Source: a bacterium
GTDB taxonomy: Bacteria; Zhuqueibacterota; Zhuqueibacteria; Zhuqueibacterales; Geothermadaptataceae
Assembly: GCA_024275575.1 (NCBI GenBank)
Contig: JAJRYV010000138.1
Location: 1 to 33,482, forward strand
DNA length: 33,482 nt
Direction: 5' to 3'
In this document: one piece after another, positions 22,458-31,170 of the stretch
Position numbering within the stretch: the stretch's first letter is position 1
Layout of the letters: each line of letters begins with the position of its first letter
Made by a program: the position numbers and the translations under genes
Notes under the pieces: generated by a model
What the model saw: only the letters and a program-made list of their open reading frames with translations
The model's database searches: none
Told to the model about the DNA's origin: nothing

Positions 22458-24170
22458 ATGCATTATAAAAATCTGAAACTGGGTACAAAACAGACTCTCG
22501 GCTTCGGCCTGATTCTATTTATCATGGCGAGCCTGAATTTTTTCAGTATTCACAAAATGCGTGAAATTCAGAATGAAATCGATGAAGTGACCTCAAACTG
22601 GCTGCCGCGTATCTCCGCTATTTCCGAGATCAATCTGCATACCTCGAATTTGTACGTACACCAGTTACAGCACGCCATCGCTATCGACGAAGTGGTTAAA
22701 CGGGAGCAACAGGCGGAAATGATCGCACTCATCGATAAAATCAATGCCAACATCGACGCCTATGATTCGCTGCGTGCCGAATCAGAAAAAAAGACCCTCT
22801 ACGCATCGCGTGAACAGCGTCTTTATTTGCATTTCGATGAAAAATGGGAGCAATATCTCGATCTGTCCTTCGAATTTATCGAGCTTTCTTCGGCGAACAA
22901 ACGTCAGGCAGCCATCGAACTACTCAACAGCCAGGGGCAAAGGGTGTATAAACTTTTGAGCAACGACCTCGAAGGCATGGTGCACGTCAATCGCGATGAA
23001 TCATCAAAAGCGGCCAAGAGAGCCGAAACCGCCTTTCTCTCGACACGAAAAGTCATTACTTCCCTGTTCATTCTCACGATTATTTTCTCCGCCATCATCA
23101 CGATGATTTTTATCCGTTACATCACTGTGCCGGTAAAAGAGCTGGAGCAGGCAGCGAAAAAAGTAACTACCGGGGATTTGAGCGTGCGGCTGGCGATCAA
23201 CAGTAAAGATGAGATCGGCAACATGGCAGCGTCTTTTAATCTTATGACCAAAGCGCTCGCCGAGGCGCGCGATCAGATGGAAGATCAGGCATCGCAGCTC
23301 AAAAGCCAGCAGCTTGTTTTGCAAGCGACCAATGAAGAGCTGCAAGGCAAATCCCGGCATTTGGAGCAGCAGAAAGAAGAAATTCAGCAAAAAAACCGAC
23401 ATCTGCAAAATACGCTAAAAGAATTGCATGCAACGCAACAGCAATTGTTGATGAAAGAAAAAATGGCTTCCCTGGGTGATCTGGTTGCCGGTGTGGCGCA
23501 CGAAATCAACAATCCCCTCGGCGTCATTCAGAGCTCCGCCGATGTCTGTGAGCGCTGTATTCAAAATATCGAGCAGAATGGCCGCGATGGCGAACAGACT
23601 GTGCCGTTGGAAACAGTGACCCGGCTCCTACGACGAAATATCGATGTAACGTTTGCCGCCAGCAAACGCATTAGGCTCATCGTCGACAGTTTGAAAAATT
23701 TTGCCCGCCTCGATGAGGCTGATTTTCAGGTTGTCGATATCCATGCGGGTATCGAGAGCGCGTTGACCCTGCTGACACGGGAAATGCAGGGCAGGCTTAC
23801 CGTGATTAAAAAATTTGTCGCACCGCCGGAGATTGGCTGCTACCCGGCGCTGCTCAATCAGGTTTTTCTCGCACTGATCAAAAATGCCATCCAGGCGATG
23901 CACGACCGTGGTACTTTGACGATCTGCACTGCGCAACAGGATGATAGGATTCTCATTTCATTTACCGATGACGGCAAGGGTATTTCCCCGGAAAAATTGC
24001 AGCACATTTTTGATTTTGGCTTTTCCGCAGGTGACGGCAAACGCATTAAACTGGGAACCGGCCTGGCGACGGCTTACGATACGGTGCAGAAGCATGGCGG
24101 TGAAATCAGGGTCAGCAGTGAAGAAGGCGAGGGAACTACTGTCGAAATTCAATTGCCGCTTTCCCGCTAA
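22458..24170 (+). CDS. Membrane sensor histidine kinase with HAMP domain
   Basis: 570 residues from ATG 22458 (GTG 22443 is an alternative). Transmembrane helix 1 at about 14-30; a periplasmic helical sensor of about 165 residues resembling the four-helix-bundle chemoreceptor domain; helix 2 at about 200-220; HAMP at about 220-275; a long Gln/Glu coiled coil at about 275-335. The kinase core has phosphoacceptor H348 (VAHEINNPLG), N-box N476 (LIKNAIQA), G1 DDGKG (504-508) and G2 GTGLA. This places it with the NtrB/ZraS-like kinases whose partners are often NtrC-type activators. No response regulator is encoded next to it. The neighbouring sigma54 activator has no receiver domain, so a partner must lie elsewhere. 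Confidence 0.92.
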   Translation: MHYKNLKLGTKQTLGFGLILFIMASLNFFSIHKMREIQNEIDEVTSNWLPRISAISEINLHTSNLYVHQLQHAIAIDEVVKREQQAEMIALIDKINANIDAYDSLRAESEKKTLYASREQRLYLHFDEKWEQYLDLSFEFIELSSANKRQAAIELLNSQGQRVYKLLSNDLEGMVHVNRDESSKAAKRAETAFLSTRKVITSLFILTIIFSAIITMIFIRYITVPVKELEQAAKKVTTGDLSVRLAINSKDEIGNMAASFNLMTKALAEARDQMEDQASQLKSQQLVLQATNEELQGKSRHLEQQKEEIQQKNRHLQNTLKELHATQQQLLMKEKMASLGDLVAGVAHEINNPLGVIQSSADVCERCIQNIEQNGRDGEQTVPLETVTRLLRRNIDVTFAASKRIRLIVDSLKNFARLDEADFQVVDIHAGIESALTLLTREMQGRLTVIKKFVAPPEIGCYPALLNQVFLALIKNAIQAMHDRGTLTICTAQQDDRILISFTDDGKGISPEKLQHIFDFGFSAGDGKRIKLGTGLATAYDTVQKHGGEIRVSSEEGEGTTVEIQLPLSR

Positions 24171-24207: not shown

Positions 24208-24236
24208 TTGCATTTAATAAAAGAAAACAATATAAT
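24208..24236 (+). promoter_or_regulatory. Promoter of the leu leader-leuA transcript
   Basis: TTGCAT (24208-24213), exactly 17 bases, then a perfect TATAAT (24231-24236). The start of transcription would be near 24243, just before the first pairing segment of the attenuator. It is one of the best sigma70-type promoters in the window. Confidence 0.65.
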
Positions 24237-24277
24237 TGCTGAAATTTTTTTAGCATGGAATGCAATTGGACAAAAAA

Positions 24278-24361
24278 ATGGTTAATCTGTATCTACACAT
24301 TCTCATCATTTCCCTACTCGAGCGACTGCTGCTCCCGGGTAAAGTCCATATTCCATGGTAG
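24278..24361 (+). CDS. leuL: Leucine leader peptide of the leuA attenuator
   Basis: A 27-codon frame, ATG 24278 to TAG 24359-24361, with GGA seven bases before the start. Eight of 27 codons are Leu, including three in a row at codons 17-19 (24326-24334), plus four Ile codons. It lies between a good promoter and a strong terminator, upstream of leuA. The peptide itself probably has no function: ribosome stalling at the Leu run is the leucine sensor. The stop codon follows directly after CCATGG (24353-24358), the segment able to pair with the terminator's left arm. Confidence 0.8.
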   Translation: MVNLYLHILIISLLERLLLPGKVHIPW

Positions 24362-24391
24362 AATAGCGATCATATATTCATCAACTTCGAT

Positions 24392-24428
24392 AAAAAAAGC
24401 CATGGAGATTTAAACCATGGCTTTTTTT
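24392..24428 (+). terminator. Attenuator terminator upstream of leuA
   Basis: A perfect 14-bp stem, AAAAAAAGCCATGG (24392-24405) and CCATGGCTTTTTTT (24415-24428), with a 9-nt loop and a seven-T tract. The position, 56 bp before the leuA start and after the leader peptide, marks it as a regulatory terminator rather than the end of the kinase operon, though it would also stop read-through from the kinase gene. Confidence 0.9.
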
Positions 24429-26265: not shown

Positions 26266-27747
26266 ATGAACACCTTAAAATCCCTCTATGGCCATTCGTT
26301 GGCGCTGCTCACCGATTTTTATCAACTGACGATGGCCTACGGTTTCTGGAAATCGCAGAAAGCGCACTATGAGGGCACCTACAATCTATACTTTCGCGCC
26401 AATCCGTTCAAGGGCGGATACACCATCGCCTGCGGTTTGCAGACAGCCATCGATTATGTAAAAAACTTCCATTTCACTGCTGACGACATCGCTTATCTGG
26501 CCACATTAAAAGGCAATGATAATTACCCGATTTTTGCCGCAGAATTTTTAAATTACCTGCAAAACCTGACTTTCTCCTGCGATATCGATGCCATGCCCGA
26601 AGGCACCGTCGTTTTCCCCAACGAACCGCTCGTGCGTATTACCGGACCGATCATCCAGTGTCAATTACTGGAAACACCGCTGCTGAACATCATCAATTTC
26701 CAAACACTCATCGCTTCGAAAGCGGCGCGTATTTGCCAGGCCACAAACGGTGAACCGGTGCTGGAATTCGGTCTGCGTCGCGCCCACGGCATCGACGGAG
26801 CGGCCACCGCCAGCCGCGCGGCCTACATCGGCGGCGTCGACGCCACCTCCAATGTTTTGGCCGGCCGGCTTTACAACATCCCGGTGCGCGGCACCCACGC
26901 CCATAGCTGGATCATGGCTTTCGAATCGGAAACCGAAGCTTTCGAAGAATACGCCCGCGCCATGCCCAACAACTGCATTTTTCTCGTTGATACCTACGAT
27001 ACGATTGCAGGCGTGCGCAAAGCAGTGCAGATCGGCAAAAAATTACAGATCAAAGGATTCAAGCTCGGCGGCATCCGCCTCGATTCGGGCGACCTGGCTT
27101 ATCTCAGCATTCAAGCGCGTGAAATTCTTGACAAAAACGGTTTCACCGAAGCCGTCATCGTCGCCAGCAACGATCTCGACGAAAAAATTATCGGCAGCCT
27201 GAAAGAGCAGGGTGCGAAAATCGGCGTTTGGGGCGTGGGCACACGTCTGGCGACCGCCTGGGATCAACCGGCGCTCGGCGGGGTTTACAAACTGGCAGCC
27301 CTGCGGCAGCCGGGTGACGATTGGCAGTATAAAATCAAACTGTCGGAACAACGTGAGAAGGTCTCCAACCCGGGCATCCATCAGGTGCGACGCTACAAAT
27401 ATCAGGGTGAATTTATCGCCGACGCGATTTATGACCTCAACATCAGCGATATAAAAAATCCCGTCATCATCGACCCGTTAGACTATACGCGGCAGAAGCT
27501 GATTCACGCTGATGCGGCATTCGAAGACCTGCTCAAACCCATTTTCCGCCAAGGCAATTTTGTTTATTCAGCCCCGACAATTCACCAGTCGCGGGAGTAC
27601 GCCCGAACCCAACTCGGTGGATTTCATGCCGGCATCAAACGCTTTGTCAATCCACATCAATATCCAGTGGGGCTGGAACGCAAACTCGACCAACTCAAAA
27701 CCAAACTCATATTTGAGGCACGGGGGAAAAATATGCGCGGGAATTGA
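26266..27747 (+). CDS. pncB: Nicotinate phosphoribosyltransferase
   Basis: 493 residues; ribosome site GGAG. Converts nicotinate + PRPP (with ATP) to nicotinate mononucleotide, the entry to Preiss-Handler NAD salvage. The start (LLTDFYQLTMAYGFWKSQ) and the block with YFRANPFKGGYTIACGL are typical of the longer NAPRTase family. Later motifs include EFGLRRAHGIDGA, GTHAHSWIMAF, LVDTYDT, KGFKLGGIRLDSGDLAYLS and ASNDLDE, which form the nucleotide and PRPP sites. It is the first gene of the NAD operon, preceded by the palindrome-bearing promoter. Confidence 0.96.
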   Translation: MNTLKSLYGHSLALLTDFYQLTMAYGFWKSQKAHYEGTYNLYFRANPFKGGYTIACGLQTAIDYVKNFHFTADDIAYLATLKGNDNYPIFAAEFLNYLQNLTFSCDIDAMPEGTVVFPNEPLVRITGPIIQCQLLETPLLNIINFQTLIASKAARICQATNGEPVLEFGLRRAHGIDGAATASRAAYIGGVDATSNVLAGRLYNIPVRGTHAHSWIMAFESETEAFEEYARAMPNNCIFLVDTYDTIAGVRKAVQIGKKLQIKGFKLGGIRLDSGDLAYLSIQAREILDKNGFTEAVIVASNDLDEKIIGSLKEQGAKIGVWGVGTRLATAWDQPALGGVYKLAALRQPGDDWQYKIKLSEQREKVSNPGIHQVRRYKYQGEFIADAIYDLNISDIKNPVIIDPLDYTRQKLIHADAAFEDLLKPIFRQGNFVYSAPTIHQSREYARTQLGGFHAGIKRFVNPHQYPVGLERKLDQLKTKLIFEARGKNMRGN

Positions 27748-27821
27748 GATGAATAAATTCATTAAAAATCGGTGTCAATCCATGGCTAAAAAACCCATCA
27801 TTTCAGCAAAAAGCGATAAAG

Positions 27822-29825
27822 ATGAAACCAGTTAAAATCGCTGCCGCGGCGCTCAACCAGACACCGCTCGCTTGGGACAGCAATCGCAAAAGCATACTGC
27901 AAGCCATTGCACGGGCGAAAAGAGAAAAAGTGGCCATTCTCTGTCTCCCCGAACTCTGCATCACCGGCTATGGCTGCGAGGATATGTTCCATTCTCACAG
28001 TCTGCACCAGCGGGCGCTCGATGAACTTTTCGAAATCGCAAATGCCTGCCGCGATATCATCGTTGCGGTCGGTCTGCCGCTGGCGTTGCAGAATGGCGTT
28101 TTCAATACGGCTTGTCTCGTCGCCAATGGCAAAATCAGCGGGTTTACTGCGAAACAGTTTCTCGCCGGAGATGGTGTGCACTATGAAAACCGCTGGTTCA
28201 AACCCTGGCCTGCGGGCGTAAAAACGATGTTGGAGCACGCTGGCGAAACCTGGCCGGTTGGTGATATTTTCTTCGATTGCGACGGCATCAAAATCGGTTT
28301 TGAAATCTGTGAAGACGCCTGGGTGGGCAACCGTTCCGGCAGCCGGTTGGCGCAGTTTGGCGTCGATGTGATTCTCAATCCCAGCGCCAGTCATTTTGCT
28401 TTTGGCAAACATGAAATCCGCAAACGCTATGCGCTTGAGGGTTCGCGCGCTTTTAATGCCACTTATGTTTACTGCAATATGCTGGGCAATGAAGCTGGGC
28501 GTGTCATTTACGACGGTGGTTGCCTGATTGCCAGCGCAGGGAAAATGCTCGCCGACGGCCCGTTGTTTTCTTACCGCGATTTCGAACTGACGACGGCGGT
28601 CGTCGACTTGCAATTACCGCGTTTAAATCAGATGCGCATCAGCAGTTTTCAACCCGAGCTCAAAGAATGTGGCCGGCGAATCGCTGTCGATTGTCGTATC
28701 GAACTATCACCTGAAACGATCACCTCCCCCCTGCTCGATCCACTCAAAGCCACGGCAAAAGAGGAAGAATTCAGCCACGCCGTCACGCTGGGTCTGTTCG
28801 ATTATATGCGTAAAAGCCACTCAAACGGTTTTGTGGTTTCCCTCAGTGGCGGCGCCGATTCATCCGCCACCGCATGCCTCATTCATTTAATGATCGAAAG
28901 GGCAGGCAAAACACTCGGATTCTCTCATTTGCGCAAAAAACTGGCCTATCTGCCGGACAGTGAAAAGATCAAATCGCTCAAACAGCTCAAACACAAACTT
29001 TTGTTGTGTGTTTATCAGGCAACGCGCAACAGTTCAGATATCACCAAAAATGCCGCACAGAAACTGGCTGCCGCCATCAATGCTGATTTTTATACCCTTG
29101 AAATTGACGAGCTGGTGGAAGGTTATAAAAATATTATCAGCGGCGCTATCGGGCGGCCGCTTTCGTGGGAAAAGGACGATATCGCACTGCAAAATATTCA
29201 GGCGCGTGTGCGGGCGCCGGGCGTCTGGCTACTCGCCAATATTCGTAGCGCCCTGCTGCTCTCCACCAGCAACCGCTCCGAGGCTGCGGTAGGTTACGCC
29301 ACGATGGATGGCGATACCAGCGGCGGCCTCTCCCCAATCGCCGGCATCGACAAAAATTATCTGCGCCACTGGTTGCGCTGGTTGGAAAAATCCGGCCCAG
29401 CAGACCTGGCGCCGGTTCCTGCTTTAAGTCTCGTCAATGCCCAGCAGCCGACCGCCGAGCTGCGTCCGGCGAGCAGCAGGCAAACCGATGAAGATGATCT
29501 CATGCCCTACGAAATTCTCGATGCCATCGAGCGCGCGGCGATTCGCGACAAGAGATCACCTGTTGAGACTTTGCAAATTCTCCGGCATAAATTTACCGTT
29601 TATGCGGATGCGGATTTGCTTTTATGGAACGAATGCTTTTTCCGGCTCTGGGCGCGCAATCAGTGGAAACGGGAGCGCTACGCCCCATCATTTCATCTCG
29701 ATGATGAAAATCTCGACCCCAAAACATGGTGCCGTTTTCCCATTCTTTCCGGCGGTTTTGAAAAGGAGTTGCAGGAAATGCACGATTTCGCCAATGCCGC
29801 GAACAGGAAAAATCCGGGGGAATGA
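27822..29825 (+). CDS. nadE: Glutamine-dependent NAD+ synthetase
   Basis: 667 residues. Converts nicotinate adenine dinucleotide to NAD using glutamine nitrogen and ATP. The N-terminal nitrilase-type glutaminase domain (1-280) has the catalytic Glu 44 (LPELCITGYG) and nucleophile C163 (FEICEDAWVG). The C-terminal synthetase domain has the ATP-pyrophosphatase P-loop S342-GGADSS and STSNRSEAAVGYATMDGD. The start has a poor ribosome site (AAAGCGATAAAG), and the frame is preceded by a 28-codon open frame that begins at the pncB stop and ends across the nadE start, so translation may depend on coupling. The gene ends in an ATGA overlap with the next gene. Confidence 0.96.
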   Translation: MKPVKIAAAALNQTPLAWDSNRKSILQAIARAKREKVAILCLPELCITGYGCEDMFHSHSLHQRALDELFEIANACRDIIVAVGLPLALQNGVFNTACLVANGKISGFTAKQFLAGDGVHYENRWFKPWPAGVKTMLEHAGETWPVGDIFFDCDGIKIGFEICEDAWVGNRSGSRLAQFGVDVILNPSASHFAFGKHEIRKRYALEGSRAFNATYVYCNMLGNEAGRVIYDGGCLIASAGKMLADGPLFSYRDFELTTAVVDLQLPRLNQMRISSFQPELKECGRRIAVDCRIELSPETITSPLLDPLKATAKEEEFSHAVTLGLFDYMRKSHSNGFVVSLSGGADSSATACLIHLMIERAGKTLGFSHLRKKLAYLPDSEKIKSLKQLKHKLLLCVYQATRNSSDITKNAAQKLAAAINADFYTLEIDELVEGYKNIISGAIGRPLSWEKDDIALQNIQARVRAPGVWLLANIRSALLLSTSNRSEAAVGYATMDGDTSGGLSPIAGIDKNYLRHWLRWLEKSGPADLAPVPALSLVNAQQPTAELRPASSRQTDEDDLMPYEILDAIERAAIRDKRSPVETLQILRHKFTVYADADLLLWNECFFRLWARNQWKRERYAPSFHLDDENLDPKTWCRFPILSGGFEKELQEMHDFANAANRKNPGE

Positions 29826-30514
29826 TGTCATTTGCATATGATTATCCCCGCCCCAGCGTGACTGCTGACTGCATCATTTTCGGGCTAGCGAACAGGCAAC
29901 TCAATGTTTTACTCATCGAGCGAAAAAGTGAACCCTTTAAAGGCTGCTGGGCATTTCCGGGAGGATTCGTCGCGGAAAACGAACCGCTGCAGGCAGCAGC
30001 CAAACGCGAGTTGGCAGAAGAAACCGGGCTGGAGAATATTTTTCTCGAGCAATTATATACCTTCGGTAATCCCGGCCGGGACCCGCGCGGCCATACCATC
30101 ACCGTTGCCTATTTTGGTTTGGTGGCGCTCAATGAATATCAGCCACATGCGGCCTCGGATGCAGTGCGTGCGCAGTGGTTTGCAGTGAATGCCTTGCCGC
30201 CGCTCGTTTTTGACCATGAACAGATTTTTGCCGTTGCGCTATCACGATTAAAAAGTAAAGTCCGCTATCAGCCCATCGGATTTGAATTATTACCGAAAAA
30301 ATTCACCCTGACGCAATTGCAGCAGCTCTATGAAACCATTCTCGAAAAACCGCTCGACAAACGCAATTTTCGCAAAAAAATCGACCGGCTGAACCTGCTG
30401 GTCGATTTAAAAGAGAGACAGACCGAGGTGCCCCACCGCGCTGCCCGGCTTTTCAGTTTTGATGAAAAAAGATATTTAACCCTGAAAGAAGAAGGTTTTA
30501 ATTTTGAAATCTGA
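29822..30514 (+). CDS. nrtR: NrtR-type Nudix transcriptional repressor of NAD metabolism
   Basis: 230 residues. The N-terminal Nudix domain carries an intact box G48-x5-E54-x7-R62-E-L-A-E-E-T-G-L70. The C-terminal winged-helix region reads FTLTQLQQLYETILEKPLDKRNFRKKI, the signature of the NrtR/COG4111 family. NrtR repressors bind ADP-ribose or related NAD products and then release DNA. The complete Nudix box suggests possible ADP-ribose pyrophosphatase activity as well. The start overlaps nadE by four bases (ATGA), which indicates tight coupling. A location inside the pnc/nad operon argues for autoregulation of NAD salvage. Confidence 0.9.
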   Translation: MMSFAYDYPRPSVTADCIIFGLANRQLNVLLIERKSEPFKGCWAFPGGFVAENEPLQAAAKRELAEETGLENIFLEQLYTFGNPGRDPRGHTITVAYFGLVALNEYQPHAASDAVRAQWFAVNALPPLVFDHEQIFAVALSRLKSKVRYQPIGFELLPKKFTLTQLQQLYETILEKPLDKRNFRKKIDRLNLLVDLKERQTEVPHRAARLFSFDEKRYLTLKEEGFNFEI

Positions 30515-30558
30515 CTGTGGGGCAGGCAATGCTCACAAGTCAAAAACGAGGAAAACCA

Positions 30559-31170
30559 ATGCACGCACTTTTACTCATCGATATCCAAAATGATTTTATG
30601 CCCGGCGGAGCGCTGGCGGTTAAAGAGGGCGATCAAATCATCCCGGTTGTCAATGCGCTGCAGGAAAAATTCGAGCTGGTGATCGCAACACAGGATTGGC
30701 ACCCGCAAAACCACGGCAGTTTTGCCGCAAATCATGCAGGAAAAAATATCGGAGAGATTATTGAGCTCAACGGATTACCACAAATTTTATGGCCGGTGCA
30801 CTGTGTGCAGAATTCACCGGGAGCAGCTTTTCACCCCGGTTTGAATACGAAAAAAATTAAACACACCATCGTCAAAGGCACCGATCCGGGAATCGACAGC
30901 TACAGTGGATTTTTCGATAACGGCCATAAAAAAGCGACCGGTCTCGAAGAATATCTCAAACAAAAAGGCGTCGATTCAGTCTCACTGTGCGGGCTCGCAA
31001 CCGACTATTGTGTCAAATTTTCAGCGCTCGATGCAGCCGAACTCGGTTTCAAAACAACGTTGATCCGCGATGCCTGTCGCGGCGTCGAGCTTTCCCCCGG
31101 GGATACGGAACAGGCAATCTGTGAAATGAAAGCAACAGGAGTGCAGATTACCGACAGCAGCGTCGTTTAA
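30559..31170 (+). CDS. pncA: Nicotinamidase
   Basis: 203 residues from ATG 30559 (AGGA eight bases upstream); an in-frame ATG at 30517 lacks support. Hydrolyses nicotinamide to nicotinate, supplying PncB. The catalytic triad is D8 (LLIDIQNDF), K106 and C151 (ATDYCVKF); the metal site is D46, H48 and H52 (QDWHPQNHGSF). LWPVHCVQNSPGA is also typical of the family. It is the last gene of the pncB-nadE-nrtR-pncA operon. Confidence 0.96.
   Translation: MHALLLIDIQNDFMPGGALAVKEGDQIIPVVNALQEKFELVIATQDWHPQNHGSFAANHAGKNIGEIIELNGLPQILWPVHCVQNSPGAAFHPGLNTKKIKHTIVKGTDPGIDSYSGFFDNGHKKATGLEEYLKQKGVDSVSLCGLATDYCVKFSALDAAELGFKTTLIRDACRGVELSPGDTEQAICEMKATGVQITDSSVV

Follow-up and report, generated by a model that had tools for sequence, protein, structure and literature searches.

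A probable leucine-specific, ribosome-mediated attenuator of a lone type-2 leuA in one genus of Calditrichota

The 33,482-nucleotide stretch of DNA analysed here (the window) carries a leuA gene of type 2 preceded by a promoter, a Leu-rich leader ORF and a U-tailed terminator, an arrangement whose best explanation is, with high probability, the ribosome-mediated, leucine-specific transcription attenuation of this lone and probably horizontally acquired gene. This reading draws on the anatomy of the sequence, on its conservation, the coding constraint of the leader and a few compensatory base changes, and on the thermodynamic possibility of the alternative helices and the ribosome geometry as modelled by folding. 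The window genome (G000) was compared with two congeners, G001 (Calditrichaeota bacterium CLD2) and G002, so the placing of the host in an “FCB-like” lineage by a preliminary description of the region was correct in substance.

Anatomy and genomic setting of the leuA leader

The promoter, the leader of 27 codons with eight Leu codons (three of them consecutive) and the 14-bp terminator with seven Ts, which had all been described beforehand, were all confirmed to the base (Table 1); the seven Ts lie within the stem. Read directly, the −35 element TTGCAT (24208–24213) is separated by 17 nt from the −10 element TATAAT (24231–24236). Neither the promoter nor the terminator passed the thresholds of generic scans for such elements, the window promoter escaping because its −35 agrees with TTGACA at only three of six positions. 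The leader begins with an ATG at 24278, and its stop (24359–24361) is directly abutted by the CCATGG of segment 2 (24353–24358), as had been claimed. The CCATGG-based alternative pairings also proved real: helix 1:2 comprises 8 bp between the segment 1 core CATGGAAT (24254–24261) and ATTCCATG (24350–24357), helix 2:3 comprises nine pairs, including two G–U, between TTCCATGGT and GCCATGGAG, the latter lying at 24399–24407 in the segment 3 region, and helix 3:4 is the 14-bp terminator stem. The region thus combines a short Leu-rich leader with an intrinsic terminator and with a helix 2:3 that excludes both 3:4 and 1:2.

Table 1. Features of the leuA leader region and of the companion ilvD leader (window positions, unless a contig is given)
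Feature	Position	Strand	Basis
Promoter TTGCAT-17-TATAAT, then TGCTG	24208–24236	+	sequence; conserved in both congeners
Segment 1, in the 5′ UTR, 5′ of the leader ORF	24248–24262	+	partner 24349–24363 in the predicted fold, 3/3 species
Weak Shine-Dalgarno-like GGA, 7 nt 5′ of the leader ATG	24268–24270	+	GGA conserved in three species
Predicted leader peptide ORF, MVNLYLHILIISLLERLLLPGKVHIPW then stop, 27 codons	24278–24361	+	length, frame and C-terminal pattern shared with G001 and G002; Leu invariant in six columns
Control codons CTG CTG CTC (Leu17–19)	24326–24334	+	RLLL invariant in 3/3, codons varying synonymously
Segment 2, ATTCCATGG plus stop TAG (its last three bases)	24350–24361	+	TCCATGGTA invariant in three species
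Segment 3, terminator 5′ arm, AAAAAAAGCCATGG	24392–24405	+	segment 2 partner GCCATGGAG (24399–24407) invariant in three species
Segment 4, terminator 3′ arm and U tract, CCATGGCTTTTTTT	24415–24428	+	CCATGGC and T run in 3/3; one compensatory stem pair
leuA, type-2 2-isopropylmalate synthase, 561 aa	24485–26170	+	TIGR00970, 735.7 bits (cut-off 697.4); NF002991, 851 bits
ilvD leader region (L117)	G000:C96, 13999–14368	minus	Ile/Leu/Val-rich leader ORF

When both strands of the window were searched for a short Leu-run ORF with a strong terminator no more than 80 nt away, the combination was found once, at the leuA leader, and it appeared in none of 20 whole-window shuffles. A histidine kinase gene ends at 24170, upstream of the leader, and the same kinase is found upstream in G001; together with the symmetry of the stem, this lends some colour to the view that the hairpin is a constitutive or boundary terminator for kinase transcripts, the ORF being fortuitous. 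Such a view is nonetheless very improbable, since the terminator is separated from the kinase gene by a conserved promoter, the length, frame and Leu positions of the leader are kept, leader and terminator together never arise in 2000 dinucleotide shuffles of this region, and in G002, where the upstream gene is a different, divergent one on the other strand, the unit of leader and leuA is still intact.

The attenuator had also been said to control a lone leuA, and this is borne out by the rest of the genome. An array ilvD-ilvB-ilvN-ilvC-cimA-leuC-leuD-leuB, devoid of leuA, occupies one strand of G000:C96 (leuB scored above its family cut-off, the leuC match fell below it, and the other genes were assigned by translation and gene order). 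Because the remaining pathway genes lie elsewhere, leuA is a detached gene with a switch of its own. Type-2 leuA (TIGR00970) is present in three of 82 Calditrichota genomes, all belonging to the genus of the window, and several other members of the phylum carry type 1, a distantly related enzyme. A phylogeny of 38 synthases puts the three Calditrichota sequences next to Pseudomonadota, with support so weak (87/85) that no donor can be named; these comparisons of sequence make acquisition of leuA by horizontal transfer likely. On the 3′ side of leuA the window contains an NAD salvage cluster (26266–31170) with genes for nicotinate phosphoribosyltransferase, an NAD synthase-like protein, a nicotinamidase and a Nudix/NtrR-like ADPR-responsive regulator (best match, below the family cut-off).

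Conservation of the leader among three congeners

The check suggested by the preliminary description, namely a search of leuA orthologues for Leu-rich leaders and compensatory changes, had a favourable outcome: leader, segments and terminator are kept in each of the three genomes with type-2 leuA, the order promoter → 27-codon leader → segment 2 running into the stop → terminator → type-2 leuA being common to all. The promoter reads CTTGC(A/T)TTT...TATAAT.GCTG in both congeners, with the 17-nt spacing, and their leaders, MIQFNLNILILSLLERLLLLGNVYHPW and MINLNLLFLLPYLAGRLLLLGDLRHPW, each end in a stop after 27 codons. These are followed in G001 and G002 by the same succession of elements, i.e., CATCCATGG with the stop, 36–43 nt, GCCATGGAG, a loop, CCATGGC and a T run, and a GCCATGG/CCATGGC terminator is found in each genome of the three. 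A pattern search of the 82 genomes found the pair CCATGGTA(R)...GCCATGGA in leader position in these three only. Three further matches to the CCATGG attenuator pattern in the 82 genomes were taken, from sequence alone, as chance; a longer G001 leader starting at an upstream ATG was discarded, as G002 lacks this ATG and the window species has it in another reading frame.

The three leaders share the pattern ...RLLL(L/P)G......PW followed by the stop and contain 8 to 11 Leu among their 27 codons, five of the six invariant Leu columns being maintained through synonymous codon changes; the Ile and Val content is not conserved. Substitutions between the window leader and that of G001 number 11, 2 and 12 at codon positions 1, 2 and 3, a pattern that looks like the one expected of selection for a translated, Leu-rich peptide. 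The hydrophobicity and conserved length of the 27 residues would also suit a functional small protein to whose translation the hairpin is unrelated, an alternative with hardly any probability given that conservation is poor outside the Leu and segment 2 codons (the three species pairs have 9, 7 and 10 identical codons out of 27) and that the conserved C-terminal codons are the RNA pairing segment itself.

At the level of RNA, two pairs of helix 1:2 and one pair of the 3:4 terminator have changed on both sides with pairing kept; some pairs of 1:2 cannot form in one species, and with only three species this covariation is thin. Direct sensing of leucine or tRNA-Leu by a T-box or a metabolite riboswitch, for which the T-box control of Bacillus ilv-leu operons (as cited in PMC5794164) provides a precedent, is the least probable alternative of all: no Rfam family reached its gathering score in the leuA leader, no leucine leader, T-box or riboswitch was listed at E values up to 10, where the best matches were other U-tailed hairpins, and the conserved portion is a coding leader.

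Folding, ribosome geometry and the proposed mechanism

Folding in the three species yields −12 to −18 kcal/mol for the terminator stem and −13 to −18 kcal/mol for the 2:3 region, helix 2:3 consisting in all three of 8–9 pairs with an invariant core. Upon equilibrium folding of the full-length RNA the terminator is usually the favoured structure, which means that switching has to depend on kinetics, as it does in trp. The effect of a ribosome was modelled by masking a 28-nt footprint and folding the nascent RNA to equilibrium, a procedure that speaks to possibility and not to kinetics. A ribosome at the stop (24359) covers ~24343–24371, thereby hiding the whole of segment 2 while segment 3 stays accessible; in all three species 2:3 is then excluded, by construction of the imposed mask, and 3:4 forms (0.96–1.0). 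A ribosome at Leu19 (A site at 24332) has its front edge at ~24344, short of segment 2 (24350), and with the footprint at Leu17–20 each of the three species adopts 2:3 in its nascent RNA, G001 and G002 clearly and the window species partially, 1:2 still competing with 2:3 in the latter when the ribosome is at Leu19.

These properties suggest a mechanism in which charged tRNA-Leu, i.e., the leucine supply, would set the transcription of leuA, the gene being turned down at high leucine. Transcription would start at ~24244. At low leucine the ribosome translating the leader is predicted to stall at Leu17–19; since its front edge would precede segment 2, the CCATGG of the latter could pair with the GCCATGG of segment 3, and this antiterminator, forming as segment 3 emerges, would allow RNA polymerase to continue into leuA. 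At high leucine the ribosome would reach the stop and cover segment 2, so that the 3:4 terminator forms and the transcript ends at ~24428. Should the leader not be translated, segment 1 could pair with segment 2 around the entire ORF and so also favour termination, and a second ribosome loading at the leader start would presumably cover segment 1. The role of helix 1:2 is nevertheless uncertain and the untranslated state not uniformly “off”, because 2:3 outcompetes 1:2 in the ribosome-free nascent RNA of G001.

The attenuation reading as a whole was upheld with a departure in layout: segment 1 sits 5′ of the leader ORF in all three species, so that helix 1:2 encloses the ORF, and the overlap of segment 1 with the control codons, a hallmark of the classic enterobacterial arrangement, is found in none of them. 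This overlap is not treated as essential, since the mechanism needs only 2:3, 3:4 and the ribosome.

The leader peptide might instead act through translation-coupled or Rho-dependent control of leuA, the hairpin playing a minor part; in its favour stand the leuA of actinobacteria, where such control is suspected and a Leu-run leader comes with a pseudoknot but no terminator (PMC1262725), and the ilvD leaders of Calditrichota described below, which lack an evident intrinsic terminator. We regard this as improbable, insofar as all three species retain the U-tailed terminator, one arm of which matches segment 2 exactly as its pairing partner, and the window terminator ends more than 50 nt 5′ of the leuA start, too far away to mask the ribosome site of that gene.

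Companion leaders and comparison with known systems

The leuA leader is not the only leader-peptide arrangement in this pathway. A 75-codon leader ending ...LIDVAIIISPVVLHILGILLISVIIISR stands before the ilvD operon of the window genome (ilvDBNC-cimA-leuCDB), and most of the Calditrichota examined have an Ile/Leu/Val-rich leader upstream of ilvD (further instances are L120–L123, L127, L128, L136–L141 and L149). At 12 of 19 ilvD loci the bases after the leader stop pair with a segment 40–140 nt downstream, a result matched in 0–1 of 100 shuffles; the sequence of this helix differs between lineages, and at part of the loci the final stretch of the leader ORF is a rival partner for this downstream segment. 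No evident U-tailed terminator was seen in the ilvD loci read closely, and no Rfam match was obtained for these leaders. Sequestration of the ribosome-binding site (RBS) as their common output was set aside, masked folding fitting the window genus weakly and not being general. At locus L119 (RBS of ilvD and segment AATCGCTTCT), the window genome has one copy of AGAAGCGA 3′ of the leader stop and another at the ribosome site of ilvD, TCGCTTCT lying in between; this repeat arrangement is possibly a translational switch, not general in the phylum. The promoters of four ilvD loci (L119, L123, L127, L128) share with the window promoter (24208–24239) CTTGC.TTT and a −10 like TATNTTTGC or TATAATTGC, resembling the Bacteroidota TAnnTTTG type.

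Leu-run leaders are not confined to Calditrichota either. A Leu-run leader ORF lies within 400 nt upstream of type-2 leuA at 27 of 80 loci (3.0 expected from shuffles, 1 found on the reverse strand); the 80 loci stem from several phyla, include one window congener and are mutually non-independent, so that the figure denotes enrichment and not a number of origins. The statement that such leaders are best described in Proteobacteria and Actinobacteria thus has to be widened, inasmuch as before type-2 leuA they occur beyond those phyla. Examples are MVKLLLLLLLLLIVPYGHFDRSTRDML in a ktedonobacterium, MTTNALLLSLMRPAAV in Granulosicoccus, M...(L)LRLTKLDxLLLG in Opitutales and TALLLTYPAL in Azospirillum. 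Loci of this kind in Chloroflexota, Verrucomicrobiota and Pseudomonadota include L035, L036, L039, L043, L044, L062, L065–L067, L085, L091, L103, L104 and L108; those of Opitutales (L043, L065, L066, L067, L085, L091) share the leader sequence CTACGACTTA and, further 3′, the motif TTTGTATTGC (TTGG.ATTGC in some). Two Anaerolineales loci (L048, L068) have a Leu-rich leader followed, upstream of leuA, by a T-tailed terminator (GCCTCCC..GGGAGGC) and, judging from these elements, are likely classical leuA attenuators in Chloroflexota. The recurrence of Leu-run leaders in several phyla suggests that control by a leader peptide has been gained repeatedly by the type-2 enzyme or moves along with it.

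The attenuators of the enterobacterial leu and trp operons consist of a promoter, a run of control codons, a stop beside segment 2, mutually exclusive 2:3 and 3:4 helices and a U-tailed terminator; classically, segment 1 overlaps the control codons, and the leu leader controls leuABCD. The window element shares with leuL/trpL the promoter, the control-codon leader, the stop next to segment 2, the alternative 2:3 versus 3:4 and the U-tailed terminator, yet it bears no detectable sequence relation to them, leader and control run being different in sequence, has its segment 1 5′ of the ORF, and would control a lone type-2 leuA instead of leuABCD. With the actinobacterial LEU element it has in common a Leu-run leader ORF before leuA; that element, however, is a pseudoknot whose base stem is formed between the run of Leu codons and the Shine-Dalgarno sequence of leuA, with no obvious terminator (PMC1262725), whereas the window has a conserved intrinsic terminator and an antiterminator. 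In Staphylococcus aureus (Firmicutes) ilvD is preceded by an Ile/Leu-rich leader peptide with a terminator 3′ of its stop, mutants supporting attenuation, and the antiterminator sequesters the U tail (PMC5794164); a branched-chain leader peptide and a terminator are common to both, but the S. aureus attenuator controls the entire ilv-leu operon from ilvD and that of the window leuA alone. The Calditrichota ilvD leader, finally, belongs to the same genome and pathway and likewise combines a leader peptide with alternative helices after the stop; it differs in being longer and Ile/Leu/Val-rich, in having helices 1:2 and 2:3 and in having no evident intrinsic terminator.

The ilvD leader may be the more novel element of the two and points to a wider, undescribed set of leader RNAs for branched-chain amino acids in Calditrichota. 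A variant layout of attenuation, in which a “protector” helix from the 5′ UTR encloses the ORF and the loading of a second ribosome, not the stalled one, frees segment 2, together with a general use of ribosome-sensed leader peptides to control branched-chain synthesis in the phylum (leuA together with a phylum-wide ilvD leader), is a tentative proposal that we consider rather doubtful. The kind of switch proposed for leuA is well known; the literature on attenuation in Bacteroidetes or Calditrichota offered nothing direct, and no report was found for the latter phylum. Classical leucine attenuation is very probably extended, with comparative support, to Calditrichota, where it is attached to the leuA of one genus.
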